NCBI GenBank assembly: GCA_031261485.1
Contig: JAISJO010000021.1
Coordinates: forward strand, 1-37,053
Length of the DNA: 37,053 nt
Reading direction: 5' to 3'
Source: Propionibacteriaceae bacterium
Lineage (GTDB): Bacteria > Actinomycetota > Actinomycetes > Propionibacteriales > Propionibacteriaceae
Shown: positions 13,493 to 34,003 of the stretch, one piece after another
How the letters are laid out: every line of letters begins with the position of its first letter
Numbering within the stretch: position 1 is the stretch's first letter
Notes under the pieces: model-generated
Database searches by the model: none
What the model was told of the DNA's origin: nothing
Seen by the model: the letters and a program-made list of their open reading frames with translations, nothing else
Translations under genes and position numbers: made by a program

Positions 13493-13629
13493 ACTCTGGC
13501 CTTCTCCGCCCGATTTTGGCTGGTCGGGTCGATGTTGGATCAAAGTCAGCCCGAAATCGGCCTCAGAATGGACGAAGTTTGGTCCTACTTCGAAAGCGAC
13601 CTCGGAAAACTGCCGGAAGTGGCCAAAGT
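13493..13629 (+). repeat. 137-bp repeat, copy A
   Basis: First of three ungapped copies of a 137-bp sequence, bounded by ACTCTGGCC and GGCCAAAGT (one mismatch from complementary ends). The shared interior includes ATCAAAGTCAG and GAAATCGGCCTCAGAAT. It occupies most of the intergenic space before the lipoprotein gene. No open reading frame with coding character is seen in it. Confidence 0.8.
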
Positions 13630-13687
13630 TGGAGTAAGGAAAGGCTGACTCACGCCTATCGTCATTCGTCGCCCTCCCTCGCAGAAC

Positions 13688-14351: not shown

Positions 14352-14957
14352 TCAGGGGGACTTTGTCCACAGGTCGGTCCAGCGTATTCCCAAGTCAGCA
14401 AGCATCATGCGCACAAGGGGCAGCGACAGGCCCACGACATTGTGGGGGTCGCCTTCGATGCCGGTGATGAAGGGGCCGCCCAATCCATCGATGGTGAATC
14501 CGCCCGCGACGTGCTCGGGCTCGCCGGTCGCCACGTACGCCTCAATCTCCTCGTCGGTCAGGTCTGCGACATGGATGATCGTCTTGCCGACGCGGGTGGC
14601 CTCGTCAACCTCGCCCCTCGACACGATGACATGATGACCCGTGACAAGGACGCCTGTTTGACTTCTGGTGCGCTTGAGCAGGGTGATCGCCGCTTGTCGG
14701 CTGCCGGGTTTGCCCACAGGGACTCCGTGGAAGTCCAGAATGGAGTCGCATCCGATGACAATGGTGTTGTCTGGGTAATCAAGGGCGGCGAAGACGGACT
14801 CGGCCTTGATGCGGGCGAGGATGGCGGCCAACTCGGCGGGAGTGGATTCGTGGTACACCGACTCGTCCACAGAGGAGACGAAGACCTCAGGTTCGAGCCC
14901 GGCGGCACGCAGTGTGGCGAGCCGTGCGGGGGACGCGGAAGCGAGAATGAGCCTCAT
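14352..14957 (-). CDS. maf: Maf-type nucleotide pyrophosphatase
   Basis: A 201-aa protein with the family N-terminus MRLILASASPARLATLRAAG and the motifs SVDES, SILDFHGVPVGKP and GGFTIDGLGGPFI. Maf proteins hydrolyse non-canonical or modified nucleoside triphosphates to monophosphates, protecting nucleotide pools, and affect septation in some species. The ATG at 14957 matches the conserved start; a longer frame running to 15233 reads through the birA side and repeat sequence and is unlikely. TACGGT (14964-14969, minus strand) ends 6 bases before the ATG. The gene is divergent from birA. Confidence 0.9.
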   Translation of the reverse strand: MRLILASASPARLATLRAAGLEPEVFVSSVDESVYHESTPAELAAILARIKAESVFAALDYPDNTIVIGCDSILDFHGVPVGKPGSRQAAITLLKRTRSQTGVLVTGHHVIVSRGEVDEATRVGKTIIHVADLTDEEIEAYVATGEPEHVAGGFTIDGLGGPFITGIEGDPHNVVGLSLPLVRMMLADLGIRWTDLWTKSP

Positions 14958-14962
14958 TCCTG

Positions 14963-14969
14963 TACCGTA
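14963..14969. promoter_or_regulatory. Overlapping back-to-back -10 hexamers for maf and birA
   Basis: On the plus strand TACCGT (14963-14968) lies 7 bases before a GTG for birA at 14976. On the minus strand TACGGT (14969-14964) lies 6 bases before the maf ATG at 14957. The two hexamers overlap almost completely, so RNA polymerase could serve only one gene at a time. Confidence 0.4.
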
Positions 14970-14975
14970 CCAGTC

Positions 14976-15932
14976 GTGGATGATACATTCGAGTCTTTCT
15001 GCGCCGACTTGGCAGAGTCGTTGTCCGAGCGGCCCCCCGAGCAGGACACTGCTGTTGTTGAAGAGGTAAGAGCTTCGCTCGTGTCCCCCCGTCATTCTGC
15101 GCACTGCGACTTCGCGCAGCACAGGCTCCGTCGCAGAATCCATGAAACGACCGGCGACTGTGCCGTTCGTCCAGGGCAGGTCGAGACAACAGGGGACGGT
15201 CCTTTTTGTCTCCCCGTTATTCGTACATGGCAAGTCGAGGTCGTCGAACGCACCGGCTCGACCAATGCCGACCTCATGGCGCGACTCCGAAAAGGCGACA
15301 ATGTCACAGGTGTGGCACTGATCGCACTGGAACAGGAGGCGGGGCGCGGGCGGCTGACACGCTCATGGGAATCCCCGGCGGGGGAGTCTGTGGCCGTGTC
15401 GGTGGGGGTGCCCATGGGGGCTGACTCCGAGCAATGGGGGCTCATCCCCCTCATGGCAGGCCTGGCCGTGGCGCGCGCAGTCAAGGACCTCGGCGGGCAG
15501 GCCAGTTTGAAATGGCCCAATGATGTGCTGTTGTCTGGGCGGAAAGTGTGCGGCATCCTTGCTGAGTCAGTCGTGCCCACAGCGGTGGTGGGCATTGGTG
15601 TGAACGTGGGGCAGTCCGAGGCCACAATCGGCTTCCCACAAGGTATTTCTCTGGTAATGGCCGGGGTGGATGTGTCCAGAGCCGAGGTGGCGGCAGCACT
15701 CCTGGCCCGATTGGGCGAGGTGTTCGGCGAGGATGAGCCTCGTCACACCTTACACTTGAAAGACTATAAGCAATGGTGCGCAACCATCGGGGAGCCCGTG
15801 CGGGTGCATCTGGATGCGACGACCATCGTGGAAGGCATTGCTGTCGATGTGGCCGACGACGGGCGACTCGTGGTGTCCTCTGGAGGTCGCACGACGGCGT
15901 ACTCGTCGGGAGATGTGTACCACCTGCGGTAG
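14976..15932 (+). CDS. birA: Biotin--[acetyl-CoA-carboxylase] ligase, no DNA-binding domain
   Basis: A 318-aa protein if started at GTG 14976. The catalytic core begins near residue 84 (WQVEVVERTGSTNADL). It contains the ATP/biotin loop AGRGRLTRSWESPAG (near 122-136), KWPNDVLLSGRKVCGIL (near 178) and VVGIGVNVG. It attaches biotin to carboxylase carrier proteins through biotinyl-AMP. No helix-turn-helix precedes the core. The first 80 residues instead hold an acidic segment and a stretch (about residues 39-58) encoded by a palindromic repeat. The exact start is uncertain because the same frame is open far upstream; the GTG is preferred for its TACCGT hexamer and because it clears maf. Confidence 0.82.
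   Translation: MDDTFESFCADLAESLSERPPEQDTAVVEEVRASLVSPRHSAHCDFAQHRLRRRIHETTGDCAVRPGQVETTGDGPFCLPVIRTWQVEVVERTGSTNADLMARLRKGDNVTGVALIALEQEAGRGRLTRSWESPAGESVAVSVGVPMGADSEQWGLIPLMAGLAVARAVKDLGGQASLKWPNDVLLSGRKVCGILAESVVPTAVVGIGVNVGQSEATIGFPQGISLVMAGVDVSRAEVAAALLARLGEVFGEDEPRHTLHLKDYKQWCATIGEPVRVHLDATTIVEGIAVDVADDGRLVVSSGGRTTAYSSGDVYHLR
15091..15148 (+). repeat. Compound palindromic element within the birA 5' region
   Basis: GTCATTCTGCGC, then an internal unit in reverse orientation (CTGCGACTTCGCGCAG), then GTCGCAGAATCCATG. One element thus seems to have been inserted into the loop of another. Read in the birA frame it gives RHSAHCDFAQH, without stop codons. Confidence 0.7.
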
Positions 15933-15953: not shown

Positions 15954-16080
15954 GTCACTGTGCGCGCCCGTCGCAGAGCCTATCCACTGAGGAAGTGCCG
16001 ACCAACGCGTCTCGTCATTCTGCGCGAAGTCGCAGAATCCATCTGACAAGCATAGATCCTGCGACTACGCGCAGGATGAC
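15954..16080 (+). repeat. Palindromic element cluster between birA and feoA
   Basis: A degenerate unit (15954-15985) is followed by a well-preserved facing pair at 16014-16080. The left arm has stem ATTCTGCG/CGCAGAAT; the right arm has stem ATCCTGCG/CGCAGGAT, a paired substitution that keeps base pairing. The outer ends GTCATTCTGCGCG and CGCGCAGGATGAC are also complementary. This accounts for about 40% of the 326-bp gap between birA and feoA; in the rest (16081-16239) I see only the approach to the feo promoter. Confidence 0.82.
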
Positions 16081-18589: not shown

Positions 18590-18879
18590 CAACTGCAACG
18601 ATGGAGCGCGCCCGGGTGGAGACGACTCATTCGCGCCCAAATCCTCTGCGCGAGGTTCGCAATTGCGTAATGGACAATGTACGCACAACCCCCGAGATAG
18701 CGCGTCGCACGGGCCTCGACCCCTCAGTAGTGAAAGCCGCCCTCGACCACCTGGCACGAGCCGGGTTAGTACAGGCCGCCCCCCTCACCACCGGCTGTCC
18801 CGCCGACGCCTGTGGCTCCTGCGCCCTGCTCAAACTGGGTTGTTCTTCGGGCGCCCGAAAGTCCCGGGGCCTACTCTAA
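18586..18879 (+). CDS. feoC: FeoC-like winged-helix iron-sulfur protein
   Basis: A 97-aa protein with GTG start inside the feoB stop. Residues 20-65 form a short winged helix (PEIARRTGLDPSVVKAALDHLARAGLV). Four cysteines follow (C71, C76, C79, C86; CPADACGSC then LGC), the arrangement of the FeoC [Fe-S] loop. It probably senses iron or oxygen and tunes FeoB stability or feo expression. Its last 9 bp overlap the end of murD2 on the other strand. Confidence 0.75.
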   Translation: MTTATMERARVETTHSRPNPLREVRNCVMDNVRTTPEIARRTGLDPSVVKAALDHLARAGLVQAAPLTTGCPADACGSCALLKLGCSSGARKSRGLL

Positions 18880-20334
18880 CTCGGTGACGAGGCGGATGTA
18901 TTCGGCTGACTTCTGTTCGAAATTGGCGTACAAGTCATAGCTCGGCGCGCCGGGGGACAGGAGAACGACTGACCCGCTCGGGGCCCGATCTGCGATGAGA
19001 CGTACAGCGTCAGACAATGAGGAAGCGTGCTGCACGCGACTCCCATCAGCGAAAGAAGCAATGACCTCAGGCCCATTACTCGGAATGGTGACGACCAGGG
19101 GCAAACGGCCAGCAGGCAAGGTCGTGAGAAAGCGACCTAGGTTGTTGTAATCCACTCCGCGACTCTGTCCGCCGGCGATGAGCACAACCGCCCGCTCAGG
19201 GAAGGAATCCAGAGCGGCAATGACTGATTCTGGAGCGGTCGACAAGGTGTCATCGTACCAATCGAGTCCGCCGACGTGCCCCACGAAGGCCAATCGATGG
19301 GGAAGAGACTCGAAGGTGGAGATGACATCAACCAAGATGTCTTCTGATACCTCGACGCCCCACGCTTGTGCCGCACATACCGCAAGGGTCAAGTTGTGAG
19401 CGCCGGGACCGGACGCGAACAGTCGCGGGAGCGATTCTGAAGGGACACTGGCAATGGCGCGTGCGACCAAGGTGCGGGTTTCCTCGGTCGGCGTGACGAC
19501 TCGCAAGGTGCCCCCGTCATTGCGCCTGTTCCCCCCGTCACAACCGTCGTCGGGGTCACACCCGCTGTCCGCGCCACACCCGCCGTCCCCGTCATTCTGC
19601 GCGGAGTCGCAGAATCCTAGGCCGAGCCTGTACCCCGACCCCTCCCGTACAAGGACCCCCAGCACCACGATGACGTCCAAAGTCTCACAGTCAGCGACAA
19701 GGACATCTGCCCCCTGTGTGAAGATACGGCACTTGTCCCGCCAGTACTCTTCGAGTCCTCCATGCCATGTCAGATGTTCTTGGTACAGATTGACGATGAC
19801 ACTGACTCGAGGGGACACGGTGAGCGAATGGCATTGGTAGCTGGACAACTCCACAACCGTCGTGCCGTCGTATTCCGGCAGGCCCAGCAGAGGCGTTCCG
19901 ATATTCCCCGCAGTGCGCGTTGGCAACCCACAACGGTTCAGTATCGCGGTGATGAGAGAAGATGTTGTGGACTTGCCTTTTGTTCCAGTCACTCCAATGG
20001 CTTGGTCGCGGTGACCCTGCATCCACAGGTCTGTACCCGAAGTGAGGGGGATACCTGCTTCTGACAAGGCACGACGAAACGGATGTACACCCGGGACGCC
20101 CGGAGAAAGGATGACACGGGAAGCGTCGAGAAGATGGGGGAGTGCTTCGGGCCCGGCGAAGAAGGAGGCACCGGGCGGGAAACCCTCGGCACTCGCACCT
20201 GCGTTCTCGTCGGCAATGATCATGGCGACGGAAGAGCCTGGGGGCGAAGAATGTGACATTCCGTGTGGCCCGCTTGAGTCGAGATAATCGGCAGCGGCGT
20301 GCCCTTCTCGGCCCGAGCCCCAGATACCATCCAT
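18871..20334 (-). CDS. murD2: Mur ligase of MurD2 type (UDP-MurNAc-L-Ala--L-glutamate ligase)
   Basis: A 487-aa Mur ligase. ATP loop VTGTKGKSTTSSL (P-loop near 117-123), GNIGTPLLGL, ELSSYQ, and the C-terminal LIAGGQSRGVDYNNL, SPGAPSYD and FEQKSAEYI are MurD-like. However, the central motif reads NLYQEHLTWHGGLEEY instead of the common NxxxDHLDRHG form, which I associate with the MurD2 branch that adds L-Glu. The MurL-like gene at 23305 supports this. Residues 240-276 (GFCDSAQNDG, then a Gly/Asp/Cys-rich run) are extra and partly encoded by a palindromic repeat. TAGGAT (20341-20346) ends 6 bases before the ATG. Ordinary MurD is the alternative. Confidence 0.75.
   Translation of the reverse strand: MDGIWGSGREGHAAADYLDSSGPHGMSHSSPPGSSVAMIIADENAGASAEGFPPGASFFAGPEALPHLLDASRVILSPGVPGVHPFRRALSEAGIPLTSGTDLWMQGHRDQAIGVTGTKGKSTTSSLITAILNRCGLPTRTAGNIGTPLLGLPEYDGTTVVELSSYQCHSLTVSPRVSVIVNLYQEHLTWHGGLEEYWRDKCRIFTQGADVLVADCETLDVIVVLGVLVREGSGYRLGLGFCDSAQNDGDGGCGADSGCDPDDGCDGGNRRNDGGTLRVVTPTEETRTLVARAIASVPSESLPRLFASGPGAHNLTLAVCAAQAWGVEVSEDILVDVISTFESLPHRLAFVGHVGGLDWYDDTLSTAPESVIAALDSFPERAVVLIAGGQSRGVDYNNLGRFLTTLPAGRLPLVVTIPSNGPEVIASFADGSRVQHASSLSDAVRLIADRAPSGSVVLLSPGAPSYDLYANFEQKSAEYIRLVTELE
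19591..19617 (-). repeat. Palindromic element inside murD2
   Basis: GTCATTCTGCGCGGAGTCGC plus AGAATCC on the plus strand: a complete unit with perfect 8-bp stem. It is read in frame on the minus strand as FCDSAQNDG. The flanking 60 bp toward 19510 are simple CCGTC/CACCC-like repeats that extend the extra peptide. Confidence 0.85.
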
Positions 20335-22391: not shown

Positions 22392-22528
22392 ACTTTGGCC
22401 ACCTCCGTGCGTTTTCAGGACATGATGTCGAAGTAGGATCAAAGTCAGTCGGAAATCGGCCTCAGAATCGGCGAACTTCCGCCCCACTCCGAACAGAACC
22501 CCGGAAACACTGCGGTTGTGGCCAAAGT
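22392..22528 (+). repeat. 137-bp repeat, copy B
   Basis: Second copy, bounded by perfect 11-bp complementary ends ACTTTGGCCAC and GTGGCCAAAGT. It is in the same orientation as copy A with no gaps and shares ATCAAAGTCAG and GAAATCGGCCTCAGAAT. It fills the gap between the two PIN toxin modules. Confidence 0.85.
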
Positions 22529-22579
22529 TGGACAGGCCCTAGTGACCAGCAAAGAAGTCAGCCCTTCGGCCGCTCGAGT

Positions 22580-23304: not shown

Positions 23305-24729
23305 TCACCCTAGTGCAGCGCGGTACTTCGCCGGGATATTGGCACTGAGGTCGTCGCCTCTGAAAGGGTCACGGTCGCGGAACTCGCCCAAACGCTCAGA
23401 CAAGACGTTGACGAGCAAGGACGCATGCCACTCGTCGCGGGCGGCAATCATACGTAACCCTTGGCGGGCTTCGGCGTAATCACCCACACACTCGAAGGGC
23501 TTGTGGCCGCAGTAACCGAGTATTTCCTCGTATGCGGTGAGGTGGCGTTCTTGGTCGAGAATGTCTTGGCCGAAAATGGGCACAAGGGTGGAGGGCGGCA
23601 ACCAGGCCGCCAAGATGAGGTACACGAACAAGCATTTCGGGCACTCACAACACCAGTGCGTCGCTCTCTTCTCCAGGTCCAGCGCAAAAGAGCGGTTGCA
23701 GGACGTGAAGGCAGGGAAGTACTGCGGGTACTCGCAGAATCGCCCGGCGATCTCCAACTCGGTCAGCGGTCGCAGAAGGGAGAAGTAAGGCGGCCGCTCG
23801 TGGCCGAGCGCTCCGCGCAGGAGATTCTCGAACTCCAGCGACTTGGACCATTGGTGGTTGATGTCATGTCCCTGCCAGAAGACATTGCCATAGCTCGCTG
23901 AGTACTCATTGCTCATGATGACCGGTCCGAGACCGAGAGCCTGCGAGGTCAGGATTCCGATGAGCGAGTTGATGGCGGTCACTGGTACATGTCCGTTGTG
24001 CGCGCCCTCCTTGTTGATGTCGAACAGCAGGGGATCAATCCGCCTGGTCGGGGAGACGTATTCGCATCCGCTCACAGCGACGCAACGGTCAATGGCGGCG
24101 TACCGATTGACGGAGTACAAGACGGGGTCGAGCCCAGCCGCCTTGCACGTTTCGATACTGACCACTGAATCCTTGCCGCCGCCAACGGCGATGAGAGGAC
24201 GTTGGGAAGGGGCGGAGGGCGCAGAGGGCGAGGAGGGCGCGGAAGAGGCAATGGTCCCACGCTTGTTCGAGGGTTGGGGACCCATCGGTTGGGCCAGCGC
24301 GGGTTGAGAAGCCACGGGTTGGGAGGCTGTGGGTTGGTCAAGCCGAAGCGCTTCAGCGTCCAGGCGCTCGGCTTCGATGCGGGGGTGTAAAGAATCGGGC
24401 AAGTTGTTTCGGTAAGCGAACTCTCCGAGCCCGCCTCGGATGAGATGAGTCAAGAAGTCGTGCTCCACGTCGGTCAACCCAAAACCCACGCTGACTAGGG
24501 GAGGGACTGCCGCCTTGTAGTAGCTCAGCCCTTGGGCAAGGGCGAGGAGTCGTGTAGGCACGCGGGCGTCTGCAGCGTCGCGGATGGGCGAGGGGAGGCG
24601 TACCTCTTCGGCAAAGGACCGACTCTCACGCCCGACGAGGGTGAAATGGCTTGTCACAACCTCAGAGCCCGCGTCGAGGTCGTACCCGTCGTAGCGGAAC
24701 TCGCTGAAGTCAGCGGGAACAAAAACCAT
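23305..24729 (-). CDS. murL: MurL-like UDP-MurNAc-L-Ala-L-Glu epimerase
   Basis: A 474-aa protein. The core carries an ATP PP-loop-like motif [15 protein letters not shown] (GGGKDS at 183-188), then [27 protein letters not shown] and a cysteine-rich [15 protein letters not shown], which fit MurL. That enzyme converts the terminal L-Glu of UDP-MurNAc-L-Ala-L-Glu to D-Glu with ATP, replacing glutamate racemase MurI. The MurD2-type ligase at 18871 is its logical partner. Residues 131-178 are an extra Gln/Pro/Ser-rich linker from tandem DNA repeats. The gene stands before rph-rdgB, a position often held by murI in actinobacteria. TACGAT (24736-24741) ends 6 bases before the ATG. Confidence 0.75.
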
Positions 24730-24761
24730 GTGTACATCGTACCTTCTGACCTCCAGTCATC

Positions 24762-24793
24762 CGTCATGCTGCGCGTCAGTCGCAGCATCCATG
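24762..24793 (+). repeat. Palindromic element with paired stem changes
   Basis: GTCATGCTGCGCGTCAGTCGC plus AGCATCC without interruption: both stem arms differ from the common form at the same paired position (ATGCTGCG/CGCAGCAT), so pairing is kept. It lies between the divergent murL and rph starts. Confidence 0.8.
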
Positions 24794-24835
24794 TCAACGC
24801 CTAAGAACCTCCAACCTCTCGGTAGACTGATGAGC

Positions 24836-25549
24836 ATGAGAAATGATGGAAGACTGGTCGACCAACTGCGTGACGTGAAGATAGCGCGCAACTGGATCGA
24901 CGCCGCCGAGGGGTCGGCACTGATTGAGTTCGGCAAGACGCGGGTCCTGGTGGCCGCGTCGGTGAGCCCGGGGGTGCCGCGTTGGCGCAAAGGTTCGGGT
25001 TTGGGCTGGGTGACGGCGGAGTACGCGATGTTGCCGAGGGCAACCTCAGAGCGAAACGACCGGGAGTCCATCAAGGGTCGCGTCGGTGGCCGCACTCACG
25101 AGATCTCCCGCCTCATCGGGCGTTCGCTGCGCGCTGTCATCGACTACAAGGCGTTGGGGGAGAACACCATACAGATTGACTGTGATGTGCTCCAGGCGGA
25201 CGGCGGGACGCGGACAGCTTCCATTACGGGCGCTTATGTCGCTCTGGTTGATGCCGTGTCGTGGTTGCGGGATCGGAAACTGCTTGTCAGCGAACCATTG
25301 ACGGGTTCGGTTGCGGCGGTAAGTGTGGGCATCATCGACGGCGTACCCATGCTCGACCTACCCTACGAGGAGGACTCCAGGGCACAAGTGGACCTCAACA
25401 TTGTCGCCACTGGCTCGGGGGACCTGATCGAAGTACAGGGAACGGCCGAGGGCAAGCCCTTCACTCGCGCCGACTTGGATGTCTTGCTGGATTTGGGGCT
25501 GGCCGGGTGTGCGCAGTTGACCCAGATTCAGGAGCTGGCGCTAGCGTGA
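24836..25549 (+). CDS. rph: Ribonuclease PH
   Basis: A 237-aa phosphorolytic 3'-to-5' exoribonuclease that trims tRNA 3' ends. [16 protein letters not shown] start, [36 protein letters not shown], and the phosphate/active-site block [21 protein letters not shown] are all typical, and the length fits. ATG 24836 is chosen over 24830 because TAGACT (24823-24828) lies seven bases before it. A longer frame reaching 24728 includes repeat sequence and is unlikely. Confidence 0.95.
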
Positions 25550-25594: not shown

Positions 25595-25717
25595 GCCATT
25601 CTGCGTGCACCGTCCAGCACCGTCATTCTGCGCGTAATTGCAGAATCCATGGGCAGTCAGGGGTGTAGCGTGACCGATTCGTCCTTTCGTCATTCTGCGC
25701 GGAGTCGCAGAATCCAT
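25595..25717 (+). repeat. Palindromic elements in a tandem duplication, rph-rdgB gap
   Basis: A fragment (about 25595-25608), a unit at 25622-25650 (loop CGTAATT, one stem change) and a perfect unit at 25689-25717. The two units and their right flanks (GTCAGGGGTG then GTGAC) form an imperfect duplication of about 67 bp. The segment fills the 184-bp gap before rdgB. Confidence 0.8.
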
Positions 25718-25733
25718 TCGTCAGGGGTGCGGT

Positions 25734-26375
25734 GTGACTGACACTTCCCCCAAACTCCTTCTGGCAAGCTCTTCCGCTCACAAGGTCGCGGAGATTTCTC
25801 GCATGCTTGCCAGTTCCGGCGTGGACGTCGAGGTACTGGGACTGGCCGACGTGGCTCCTTACCCTGAACCCGACGAGAACGGCCGCGATTTCGAGGACAA
25901 CGCCTTGATCAAGGCGCGGGCTGGCCACGAGGCGAGTGGACTTCCGACTTTGGCCGACGATTCGGGCCTTGAGGTGGACGTCCTCAATCGCATGCCTGGC
26001 GTACGTTCCGCCCGCTGGGCAGGGGTCGGAGCGGGTGACCACGAGAATCTGGACTTGCTGATTCGCCAACTCGATGATGTGGAGCCAGCTCGGCGAACGG
26101 CCCGCTTCGTGTGTGCGATGGCCCTTGTCAGCGAAGGTATTGAGCAGGTCGTGCGTGGAACGGTCGAGGGAGTGCTCATCTCGGACAAGCGGGGGAGCAA
26201 TGGGTTCGGTTACGACCCCATCTTCCTTCCCGAGGGGTCGTCTCGCACAACCGCCGAGTTGAGCGCCGATGAGAAGGACGCCATCTCCCATCGCGGTCGG
26301 GCCTTGCGGGCGATGGTCGGCCCCATCGCGGACCTTTTTGGGGCGCATCATCAGACGGGACAGGAGAACGCATGA
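25734..26375 (+). CDS. rdgB: Non-canonical purine NTP pyrophosphatase (RdgB/HAM1)
   Basis: A 213-aa cytosolic house-cleaning enzyme that hydrolyses ITP, dITP and XTP. Motifs: [67 protein letters not shown] and [11 protein letters not shown]. The GTG at 25734 directly follows AGGGGTGCGGT, where AGGGG can serve as ribosome-binding site. It follows rph as in most actinobacteria and overlaps thyA by ATGA. Confidence 0.93.
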
Positions 26376-27166
26376 AGCAATACATTGACCTTCTGAAGCG
26401 CATTCTCGACGAGGGAGTGGAGAAGTCCGACAGGACGGGCACGGGGACGCGCTCGATCTTCGGCCATCAAATGCGCTTCCACCTCGAAGAAGGATTCCCC
26501 CTTCTGACAACGAAAAAGGTACACACCCGTTCCGTCTTTGGTGAACTTCTGTGGTTCCTGCGCGGTGACACGAATATTGCCTGGCTGCATGAGAACAACA
26601 TCTCTATCTGGGATGAGTGGGCGGACGAGAACGGCGACCTCGGCCCGATTTACGGGTATCAGTGGCGGTCGTGGCCGACCCCCGATGGTCGCCATGTCGA
26701 TCAAATCGCCCAGGTCATCAAGCAAATACGCGCCAAGCCCGACTCGCGGCGCCACATCGTTTCCGCGTGGAATGTGGCCGATGTGGAGGATATGGCCCTT
26801 CCGCCGTGCCACACCATGTTCCAGTTCTATGTGGCGGACGGGAAGCTCTCGACCCAGTTGTACCAGCGCAGTGCCGATGTGTTCTTGGGAGTGCCATTCA
26901 ACATTGCGTCGTACGCATTGCTCACTCATCTGGTTGCGCAGGTCACTGGACTGGGCGTGGGGGACTTCGTACACACCCTGGGCGACGCCCATATTTACAG
27001 TAATCACATGGACCAGGTGGCTCTTCAGTTGACGCGAGAGCCGCGAGCATTGCCTACTGTGCGACTCAATCCTGCCGTGACGGACATTGACGCTTTCGAG
27101 TTGTCGGATATCGAGGTGGACGGCTATGACCCTTGGCCCGCCATCAAGGCCCCCATCGCGGTATGA
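26372..27166 (+). CDS. thyA: Thymidylate synthase
   Basis: A 264-aa enzyme, the same length as the E. coli protein, that methylates dUMP using methylene-tetrahydrofolate. [28 protein letters not shown], the active-site PPCHTMFQF with nucleophile Cys146, [19 protein letters not shown] and [12 protein letters not shown] are intact. CAGGAG lies before the ATG inside the end of rdgB. folA follows after 9 bp and regenerates tetrahydrofolate. Confidence 0.97.
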
Positions 27167-27175
27167 GGATGTGCC

Positions 27176-28084
27176 ATGCCGAATACGCCATCACTGACTG
27201 ACCCACCGTTCGATTCTGAGGTGTCGGGCGTTCCTGGCGTTTTCCTCCTGCCCATCGTGCCGGTAACGGCCATTGCCGCTGTCGCTCGCAATGGAGTCAT
27301 CGGTAACCATGGCGAGATTCCCTGGCACATCCCCGAGGACTTTCGACGCTTCAAGAAGGTAACAATGGGCGGCGCCCTCATCATGGGCCGGACAACCTTC
27401 GAGTCCATCGGCAAACCCTTGCCTGGGAGGATAACAATTGTTGTGTCCCGCAGTACGGCGCCCGCCGGTCGTCATGTTGCGCAGGATGACGCGAGTGTCG
27501 GACCGGATGGCGTGGGGTTCGCACCCACCCTCCGTCATTCTGCGTGTGAGTCGCAGAATCTAGTTGGTCAGACGCGGCCCGGATACTGCGACTTCGCGCA
27601 GGATGACGGAGGCCCTCCGCCCAACCCGACCACACCTGACCAGGTCCAGTGGGCGTCCTCGGTTCCCGCCGCCCTCGACCTTGCCGCCACCCTGGCATTG
27701 CCCGTTTTCGTCGCTGGAGGTGCGCAGATATACCGTGCGGCTTGGCCCTATCTCACCCACCTCGACATCACTGAGGTGGACCTCGAACCCGACGGTGACG
27801 CGCTTTTCCCGCCCATTGATTCAAGGTGGGCGGAGTCGTCGCGCGAGCCTCACGACGGGTACGCCTTCGTACAATACGAACGGGCAGCCTCCGAGCGAAG
27901 GCCCGAAGAAAATGGTTCAATGTGTCATTCTGCGACATCATCCTGCGCGCAAGTCGCAGAGCAAAGAACCCACTCCATCGGCTCAGATCCTGCGACTCCG
28001 CTTCGCTCTGCGCCGGATGACGAGGACGACCCCAACGACAATCGTCCTCTTTCTCAATCCCTGGCGACGACTGACGATGCGTGA
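27176..28084 (+). CDS. folA: Dihydrofolate reductase with repeat-encoded insertion and tail
   Basis: A 302-aa protein, against 160-180 for typical bacterial DHFR. The catalytic parts are all present: IAAVARNGVIGNHGEIPWHIPEDFRRFK (34-60), GGALIMGRTTFESIGKPLPGR, VFVAGGAQIYRAAWP, THLDITEVDLEPDGDALFPPI and YAFVQYER (229-236). Residues about 96-156 are extra and lie in the loop after the IVVSR strand; residues 237-302 form an added tail. Both are largely encoded by palindromic elements. The tail overlaps the start of dinB by 8 bp. GAGG before ATG 27176 supports this start, giving a 28-residue leader before the core. It reduces dihydrofolate made by the adjacent ThyA. Confidence 0.88.
   Translation: MPNTPSLTDPPFDSEVSGVPGVFLLPIVPVTAIAAVARNGVIGNHGEIPWHIPEDFRRFKKVTMGGALIMGRTTFESIGKPLPGRITIVVSRSTAPAGRHVAQDDASVGPDGVGFAPTLRHSACESQNLVGQTRPGYCDFAQDDGGPPPNPTTPDQVQWASSVPAALDLAATLALPVFVAGGAQIYRAAWPYLTHLDITEVDLEPDGDALFPPIDSRWAESSREPHDGYAFVQYERAASERRPEENGSMCHSATSSCAQVAEQRTHSIGSDPATPLRSAPDDEDDPNDNRPLSQSLATTDDA
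27470..27607 (+). repeat. Palindromic elements inside folA (internal loop)
   Basis: Three arms: a fragment (27470-27490, GTCATGTTGCGCAGGATGAC), a full unit (27532-27560, stem ATTCTGCG/CGCAGAAT) and a reverse-oriented unit (about 27580-27607 ending CGCGCAGGATGAC). In frame they read RHVAQDD, RHSACESQN and GYCDFAQDDG, with no stop codons. Confidence 0.85.
27925..28022 (+). repeat. Palindromic elements at the folA 3' end
   Basis: A left arm starting GTCATTCTGCG with an inserted CATCATCCTGCGCG, and a reverse right arm starting GATCCTGCGACTCCG and ending CGCCGGATGAC, together about 98 bp. The ends are complementary. They encode most of the added DHFR tail and end 55 bp before the dinB start. Confidence 0.8.
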
Positions 28085-32777: not shown

Positions 32778-33043
32778 GGCATGCTCCTTCATCTGTGTAG
32801 GCGTTTATTCTAGCGTGTTTTCGCGCTATTTTTGGTGGGCCAGGCTCGACTCTCCTTGTGCTCCGTCTCATCGGGGCGTAGAAGCATGCCGCGATTGAAC
32901 CCACCGGACTAGACTTCAACTTTCATTTCTTCACTGTATTGAGACTGAGTCCTTCCATTTCAGTTGTCCACAGGCATGTGTCTGGTCCACAAGACCGACC
33001 GGTCACATTATCCATCCGTGTGATTCAAGAGGTAAGGAGACTG

Positions 33044-33198
33044 CGCGGGCCAACTTTGGCCGAAACCGTGCAACTTCCGAGGGGCGCTTCGGAGTAGGTG
33101 CAAAGCACGCCCGTTTCAGGCCAGGAACTGGGCCATCTTTGAGCCAACACCGTGTGGAGCCGCCGAATACACCCGGAGTAGGCCAAAGTTGGCCCGCG
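33044..33198 (-). repeat. 137-bp repeat, copy C, with extended terminal inverted repeats
   Basis: The reverse-oriented copy. The 137-bp core is 33053-33189; around it the ends extend to a perfect 18-bp inverted repeat, CGCGGGCCAACTTTGGCC at 33044-33061 and its complement at 33181-33198. It aligns with copies A and B without gaps when reversed, though the interior is more diverged. Confidence 0.85.
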
Positions 33199-33260
33199 TC
33201 GATAGGGGAGAGTCAGTTTGGCGCACTGTATATATAGGGAGCGGACCTCATCTAGGTACT

Positions 33261-33325
33261 GGACCCGGCGACCTCGCGCAGGGTGACAACACATCCCGTC
33301 ATTCTGCGCGTAGTCGCAGAATCCA
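33261..33325 (+). repeat. Palindromic elements in tail-to-tail order
   Basis: A reverse unit (33261-33287, ending CGCGCAGGGTGAC) followed by a forward unit (33298-33325, GTCATTCTGCGCGTAGTCGC and AGAATCC). The order is opposite to that of the pairs at 13688 and 16014. Confidence 0.75.
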
Positions 33326-34003
33326 CACACCAAGCACGGCCCGTTGTCCCCGGCTCTTTTCGCACAGTGTGACCTTCGGTGAGTAGGTAATGGGCCAGGC
33401 GTCAGTATTTCCGCGGAACTACACCCTCGGTCATAGAAATCACGGCCCTGACACGCGCTGGACGGCTCAAAATCGACCACAATTCGGCAGTTGCAGGGGG
33501 TTGTCGAGTGATTCCAGAATGGCCATCTCACCTATGTTTTTCGGTGTCAGCCGGGCCGAATCTGTGTTAGGCTGTGAAACAGATTCGGGCAGTGTGGCCC
33601 GACAAGCCCACGGTACTACGTTTCCACGGCAACTTTAGGAAACTTGGCATAAATGAGTTGTGGATATCCCCCCAAAGAACTAGCGTTCATCAAGAGTACA
33701 CAGATTCTCTTTTTGAGTACGCAGTTTTTGTCTGTGGGTACGTAGAAAGGGTCTGTTCTCACCGTGGGTCGCTACCACACAATTTCATAAGGTGCGCCGC
33801 CGGGGCGCATGAACGTCATGTATCGGGGAGGTCATTGATGACACAGCCACTGGGTTTGTGTAGACATTATGCTGCGGAAGGAGGGGTGCCTCCGACATTG
33901 CTATGTCTAGGGGAAACACTCTTCTACAGTCCACATAACCAAAGTCCAAGCCGCGCGCTCACCGAACAACAATCTTCAAATAACCAACAACGAGGGGGAT
34001 CCC
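33326..34003. other. Non-coding upstream region of the surface protein gene
   Basis: About 680 bp, less GC-rich than its surroundings, with no convincing gene. An open frame at 33574-34011 has no recognisable protein character and runs into the next start. An inverted repeat CCGAATCTGT / ACAGATTCGG (33555-33564, 33578-33587; 13-base loop) is the main structure. A long leader or upstream promoters for the surface gene are plausible. GAGGGGG at 33992-33998 is the ribosome-binding site for the ATG at 34004. The rest of the gap after 32777 (32778-33043) shows nothing recognisable. Confidence 0.5.

Follow-up and report, generated by a model that had tools for sequence, protein, structure and literature searches.

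How did a repeated palindrome come to lie, in frame, within a gene of peptidoglycan synthesis, and what becomes of the enzyme that carries it? The question is raised by a Propionibacteriaceae bacterium (GenBank assembly GCA_031261485.1, hereafter the host genome), in which the window, the whole stretch of 37,053 nucleotides analysed here (contig JAISJO010000021.1), contains a murD gene with a REP unit in its reading frame. The host genome comprises 2.8 Mb and is available as a draft in 112 contigs, which is estimated to be 98% complete. The features at the locus are as follows (window coordinates):

18871–20334, minus strand: murD2 ORF of 487 aa (TIGR01087, 252 bits, over the cut-off)
19510–19641, minus strand: lineage-specific in-frame insert of 44 residues (232–275; 132 nt), delimited by alignment with six MurD2 relatives and by composition
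19515–19524, minus strand: CGCAATGACG, possibly the remnant of another unit head, as judged from its ATGAC stretch
19534–19587, minus strand: three degenerate 18-nt repeats, DGGCGA-DSGCDP-DDGCDG, recognized by sequence and self-match
19591–19617, plus strand: complete REP unit, GTCATTCTGCGCGGAGTCGCAGAATCC, consisting of GTC, an 8-bp stem, a 6-nt loop, and a CC tail

The preliminary description of this DNA had held that ordinary Mur ligases lack the segment and that its presence in close relatives of all lineages would speak against an insertion; in the alignment with MurD2 relatives, the segment is missing from all six other proteins (G015, G046, G080, G081, G094, and G098). The insert is rich in Gly (14), Asp (9), and Cys (4 of its 44 residues), and its G+C content (0.70) is higher than that of its flanks (0.59 and 0.60). 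The Gly/Asp/Cys-rich run is therefore present as described; its span, given as residues 240–276, is slightly longer (232–275). Even the closest of the six insert-free proteins, that of G015, reaches an identity of only 64% in one half and 53% in the other, so the age of the insert, its exact borders, and the direction of change are not fixed by this comparison. Because the alignment with E. coli MurD (query 218 = E. coli 214; query 311 = E. coli 265) brackets the insert ahead of the GAHN motif (residue 311), we place it within the central ATPase domain and not at the junction with the C-terminal domain, where the preliminary description had put it. Its tolerance and the precedent of other elements suggest a loop that is presumably exposed at the surface.

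The unit fits the pattern of the REP family with zero mismatches. The murD2 ORF runs through it on the minus strand and translates it as G-FCDSAQND-G (residues 240–249), which includes the peptide FCDSAQNDG (241–249) already recognized in the preliminary description. The window contains nine matches at up to three mismatches, versus none across 100 dinucleotide shuffles; at up to two mismatches, the host genome contains 94 (42 forward and 52 reverse), versus none for the reversed control. As RNA, the stem of the unit alone is predicted to fold with −11.3 kcal/mol (z −2.31), and a 141-nt stretch spanning the insert displays no excess structure (z −0.72). No TIR is seen by eye at the murD2 copy, which we therefore take to be a solo unit.

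The family has the consensus CGTC-ATTCTGCG-CGNAGT-CGCAGAAT-CCA. Its features were scored in a set of 126 units with up to four mismatches, drawn from the window and from 70 stretches around the 94 matches (one unit is counted twice because L171 and L218 overlap). Of these units, 72% have a C and 26% a T ahead of GTC, which yields a CGTC or TGTC head, and an A follows in 87%, which yields a CCA tail. The first stem pair is A-T in 117 units, the second is T-A in 122, and the third co-varies with compensation (T-A in 84, C-G in 25, and G-C in 4). The loop comprises 6 nt, most commonly CGAAGT (74 of 126); a variant with a 7-nt loop accounts for 15 matches at up to two mismatches. Inverted dimers are formed by 20 pairs of opposite orientation, with a start spacing of 40 nt and the heads directed outward, as in the following feature of the window:

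16014–16080, no strand assigned: REP dimer of two opposed units, start spacing 40 nt (−42.2 kcal/mol, z −9.13)

No gene of a known family was identified over this dimer. The window also contains a 106-nt direct repeat (13528–13633 and 22427–22532; 77% identical); a gap of 55 nt separates the end of the first copy from a REP unit, whereas the second copy has no unit closer than 2.8 kb. Among 198 genomes of the family, 5 contain the exact 27-mer, and among 19 genomes of the genus, 4 contain a relaxed form of the REP, the host genome included in each case. Neither form is present in G015, the nearest owner of a MurD2, and no exact match to the 28-mer was found among viral contigs.

The function of the interrupted gene can be predicted from its surroundings. 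In an alternative pathway of peptidoglycan synthesis known from Micromonospora, Salinispora, and other actinobacteria, MurD2 adds L-Glu, which is then epimerised by MurL; the specificity is set by Glu197 and Arg358 of the Xanthomonas enzyme, which correspond to Asp182 and Lys348 of E. coli (PMC8788868). The latter two positions align with Glu186 and Arg392 of the MurD2 in the window, which also contains a candidate for the second enzyme:

23305–24729, minus strand: murL homologue (NF041275, 327 bits, E 1.6e-97, below the cut-off of 700)

NF041275 is a model for Xanthomonadales, and its 700-bit cut-off is not reached by the homologue in the window. The gene is located about 3 kb from murD2; a homologue with 56% identity adjoins murD2 in G015, and MurL homologues adjoin murD2 at all six other MurD2 loci. 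A search for MurI in 12 genomes yielded matches over the cut-off in seven and a weak match in G046 (26 bits); none was found in the host genome, G015, G080, and G081. All seven other members of the genus searched for MurI possess both MurI and a full-length MurD over the cut-off. Since a murL homologue is nearby, the Glu186/Arg392 signature is present, and MurI was not found, the murD in the window is most likely the MurD2 of the MurD2-MurL pathway, with a predicted L-Glu ligase activity. In the host genome, G015, G080, and G081, the presence of MurD2 and a neighbouring MurL homologue coincides with a MurI that was not found.

A second, uninterrupted murD, which would have spoken for a dispensable or decayed gene, was looked for in the host genome, and no complete one was found: the window murD2 is the sole MurD over the family cut-off in the search of the genus, and apart from this REP-bearing gene, the assembly yielded no complete MurD. 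Because the draft is estimated at 98% completeness, a murD or murI may have been missed. An initial scan of the contigs with the MurD2 protein as query retrieved no relative. The dcw cluster of the host genome (C21, L061:8387–9403) contains an open MurD-like ORF of 338 aa, which matches the model with 44 bits over positions 1–183 only and has GPESAQA where the P-loop is expected; its neighbours appear by eye to be mraY and ftsW. A similar open ORF in G015 (C20, L062:4581–6192, minus strand; MurD match 5–195), with GDDDVDA in place of the P-loop, precedes a gene that we take to be ftsW-like. In both genomes, these MurD-like ORFs without P-loop or C-terminal domain have stayed open, and the only complete MurD found is MurD2. 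Their sequences suggest that they possibly encode a MurD pseudoenzyme.

The copy in murD2 has many counterparts. A genome-wide count of copies inside genes, as envisaged in the preliminary description, started from the 94 copies of the host genome; of the 126 units (with one duplicate, as noted above), it places 27 in frame, across 19 ORFs. These were retained from 21 that had been chosen for family searches among 78 candidates, a selection that may bias the count. For all but one of the 19 ORFs, a family was matched in Pfam or NCBIfam, although the match of the TadE-like ORF barely passes (23.4 bits, cut-off 22.9). The hosts are MurD2, DHFR, HutH, a TIGR03936 protein, LacZ, an aminotransferase, LarE-LarB (in the linker), an FtrD-like membrane protein, PyrC, UppS (in an N-terminal extension that may precede the true start), GH115, an FAD-binding protein, a polyprenyl synthase (three units), an S9 peptidase, FolP (in the C-terminal tail), KsgA, Lhr, the TadE-like ORF (in an N-terminal extension), and a membrane ORF without Pfam match. 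Several of these enzymes are generally essential. Insertion was assessed against aligned relatives for MurD2 and PyrC only; the PyrC insert of 39–40 residues is absent from the 11 relatives aligned (18 had a match). In HutH, KsgA, and TIGR03936/DUF2344, the unit lies within a single family match. The folA and birA examples of the preliminary description hold as well, the BirA stretch lying ahead of the catalytic domain:

27176–28084, plus strand: DHFR with a REP unit in frame (27581–27607) and a 7-nt-loop variant (27534–27560); PF00186 matches in two stretches
14442–15932, plus strand: ORF of biotin-protein ligase (BirA; start codon uncertain) with REP-derived residues 217–236 and catalytic domain 265–494

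The other two of the 21 ORFs, both in the window, have no Pfam match and were dropped (25623–26510, antisense, with a unit at 25689–25715; and 33025–33531). The RNase PH ORF (24728–25549), whose family match begins at residue 38, has an N-terminal extension that overlaps a 7-nt-loop variant (24763–24789), and its true start is probably located downstream. In the polyprenyl synthase (L205:1173–2525), the three REP units, together with a repeated spacer, occupy an apparent insert of about 120 residues; perhaps an array is growing within the gene.

The consensus unit is free of stop codons in five of six frames. Two of these five, which yield the RHSARSRRIH/MDSATSRRMT register, account for 20 of the 27 in-frame units (binomial p 0.0003) or, counted by ORF, for 14 of 19 (p 0.003), values to be read in the light of the selection of ORFs and the non-independence of units in the same gene. 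The GFCDFAQND frame is used by four units, including that of MurD2, and the hydrophobic VILREVAES frame by none of the 27. Under a single rule (up to two mismatches, an ORF no shorter than 200 aa, and 30 aa to either side of the unit), 22 of the 94 units of the host genome fall inside ORFs, at least three of which (L177, L179, and L196) look spurious; the corresponding count for 80 listed loci of other records (see below) is 5 of 107 units, two of them with Pfam support. By a codon-usage score, the MurD frame comes first on the left of the unit but second on the right, and only 13 of the 78 candidate ORFs passed on both sides. For this reason, the coding status of the ORFs rests on the family matches.

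The explanation that we consider quite probable is that a CGTC-type REP entered murD2 of this lineage in frame, as non-autonomous DNA that is tolerated by an enzyme presumably translated and active with its insert. The 27-nt unit would multiply in the genome through some agent; insertions that break a gene would be lost, and because the consensus is open in five of six frames, copies that keep the frame in tolerant loops would survive selection. Motifs that we take to be catalytic occur both ahead of and behind the MurD2 insert, and by analogy with a precedent described below, the protein would be made and function. Against this reading count the second rank of the MurD frame by codon usage to the right of the unit and the transposase searches described below, which tied no transposase to the repeat. 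The REP in MurD2 is most likely selfish DNA, presumably neutral, that is tolerated in a loop presumed to be exposed.

A variant of this explanation that differs only in the order of events has a substantial, if less than even, chance of being correct. It assumes that slippage first created a low-complexity Gly/Asp/Cys loop, into which the REP landed later. The REP makes up only 27 of the 132 nt of the insert, and the remainder may represent older or unrelated low-complexity DNA; the self-match of the insert, 0.49 at lag 18 (0.45 at lag 36), points to slippage, even if Tandem Repeats Finder reported no array within the insert. In LarE-LarB, moreover, a low-complexity linker precedes the REP. 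By contrast, the PyrC insert consists of a REP and terminal-repeat-like sequence with little low complexity (as judged by eye), and the MurD2 insert contains two ATGAC (versus two in the remaining murD2 ORF), as do the extended regions of RPE-4 (PMC3767692); both observations count against this order.

The insert might also have been co-opted, e.g., for metal or redox sensing via its cysteines or for the regulation of MurD2. With four Cys and nine Asp among its 44 residues, and with the frame preserved in the only complete MurD found, the insert would be in line with such a role, which we nevertheless regard as very unlikely: the segment is present in only one of the seven MurD2 aligned, and the occurrence of the repeat in different frames and in unrelated enzymes favours a general tolerance over co-option. 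Even less probable is a decay of murD2 with the insertion as an early step. Although the domain hit by the insertion is conserved and the enzyme normally compact, the ORF is open over 487 codons with its catalytic motifs present, and the genome has yielded a MurL homologue but no other complete MurD and no MurI. There is hardly any reason to suspect that the assembly joined fragments at a repeated 27-mer, as might happen in a draft of 112 contigs with a unit repeated more than 90 times, because both sides of the unit match the same MurD2 co-linearly in one frame, as is also the case in PyrC, and single family matches cross the unit in HutH, KsgA, and TIGR03936/DUF2344.

If tolerated insertion is the preferred reading, the agent that moves the REP becomes the next question. 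The view of the preliminary description that a mobile palindrome gives peptide to enzymes stands with respect to the peptide; mobility is suggested by copy number and lineage-specific presence, and the transposase searches described below yielded no mobilising enzyme. TIR-like matches (GGGAASCACTGA, up to two mismatches) number 117 in 271,542 bases, of which 45 are located within 60 nt of a REP unit. Five loci (L160, L163, L173, L206, and L211) contain an element that is bounded by two TIRs, measures exactly 121 bp, and encloses one or two REP units; the remaining TIR pairs with units span 82, 89, 120, 131, and 197 bp. Fused TIR halves form a 28-bp palindrome without REP at L242:1234–1261 and L246:1435–1462. 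At five other loci (L244, L245, L247, L250, and L251), the same TIR is followed by an ATCATG-containing stretch, with no REP unit within 100 nt, and perhaps represents another element with the same ends.

A search of the host genome for RAYT (PF01797, Y1_Tnp) gave no matches, and one for PF01609 (DDE_Tnp_1) gave a single ORF; these two types represent the transposases covered. The PF01609 ORF shows no convincing link to the REPs: near it there is a single TIR-like match (two mismatches, 148 nt outside, on one side), about as many as the background would yield. The one well-matched TIR pair, 1.5 kb apart on contig C76, was considered as an IS and discarded, because the gene between its members looks by eye like that of an ABC-transporter ATPase and the pair itself is made up of two separate fused-TIR palindromes.

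The palindrome is not confined to the host genome. The exact 29-mer occurs in at least 95 stretches, 80 of which are listed; among the matches listed (L064–L143) are Oscillospiraceae, Burkholderiales, Helicobacteraceae, Endomicrobium, Coriobacteriia, Leucobacter, and others, representing several phyla. Many of the records among these matches carry the sample codes Nt197, Lab288, Emb289, Cu122, and Co191, which denote the guts of higher termites (PMC7024585). The G+C content of the 80 listed loci ranges from 0.32 to 0.69; it is fairly even within most MAGs, which makes mis-binning less likely without excluding it, and varies from 0.51 to 0.65 within one MAG of Betaproteobacteria. It is conceivable, if rather unlikely, that a palindrome near-identical across gut phyla spreads in a TIR-bounded 121-bp composite moved in trans by a DDE-type transposase and seeds inserts in core enzymes, including the only MurD2. 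On this view, CGTC REPs would travel as the cargo of mobile MITEs between phyla that share a habitat and would give rise to new protein loops.

The repeat can be compared with several known systems. REPINs are inverted REP pairs that behave as a unit; they are of the GTAG type and are mobilised by RAYT transposases. The repeat in the window shares the inverted pairs with REPINs but not the GTAG type, and a Y1_Tnp domain was not found in the host genome. The superfamily of CGTC-tagged REPs spans five phyla, and in several species some of its copies lie within genes (Di Nocera et al. 2013, PMC3733652). In-gene palindromes are therefore known from bacteria other than Rickettsia, the one group that the preliminary description had named. 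The repeat shares with this superfamily the CGTC head, the 8-bp stem starting with A-T and T-A, the CCA tail, the inverted dimers, the intragenic copies, and the fact that no RAYT was found. It differs from it in the loop of 6 nt (in some units 7) instead of 4–5 nt, in its actinobacterial host, and in the location of some units within a 121-bp TIR-bounded element. A few families with loops of lengths other than 4–5 nt are named in that source, and the string 'actinobacteri' does not occur in its main text (PMC3733652). Because head, stem, tail, and dimers fit but a 4–5-nt loop does not, we file the repeat as a putative variant of the CGTC-tagged REP superfamily, to which RPE-4 and RPE-6 also belong (PMC3733652).

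The host gene likewise has known counterparts. With the MurD2-MurL pathway described previously, it shares the Glu/Arg signature, the MurL homologue, and the MurI that was not found (PMC8788868); unlike in that pathway, the MurD2 in the window has a REP insert, and the dcw cluster retains a MurD-like remnant. The guanylate kinase (gmk) of Rickettsia that contains an RPE is translated and active, with a changed substrate affinity (PMC2229807); there, the evidence comes from the protein and concerns a different element, whereas the MurD2 discussed here is known from its sequence.

The closest parallel, by analogy, appears to be the inserts of RPE-4, -6, and -7 in genes of Rickettsia japonica, which have ATGAC-rich extended regions and occupy solvent-exposed places (PMC3767692). 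In both cases, in-frame inserts are found in conserved genes (84–192 bp in the R. japonica table rows considered), ATGAC is present in the repeat and in extended regions, and a biotin ligase is among the targets (PMC3767692). The present case differs in its phylum and non-rickettsial host, in the enzymes hit (MurD2, PyrC, DHFR, KsgA, and HutH), and in the mixed frames. No actinobacterial case of in-frame palindromic insertion was found in searches of open-access literature; such insertions, known from Rickettsia and a few other bacteria, are here extended to an actinobacterium with a genome of 2.8 Mb. The insert-bearing gene is one for which no back-up was found, as it is the only complete MurD and MurI was not found, and the parallel cases in one genome (PyrC, DHFR, KsgA, HutH, LacZ, and others) offer an opportunity to test how proteins absorb new segments. 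What is new compared with the known systems is the actinobacterial host, the heavy intragenic load, and the 121-bp TIR-bounded composite, which provides a concrete lead on how CGTC REPs, for which no dedicated transposase is said to exist, might move.
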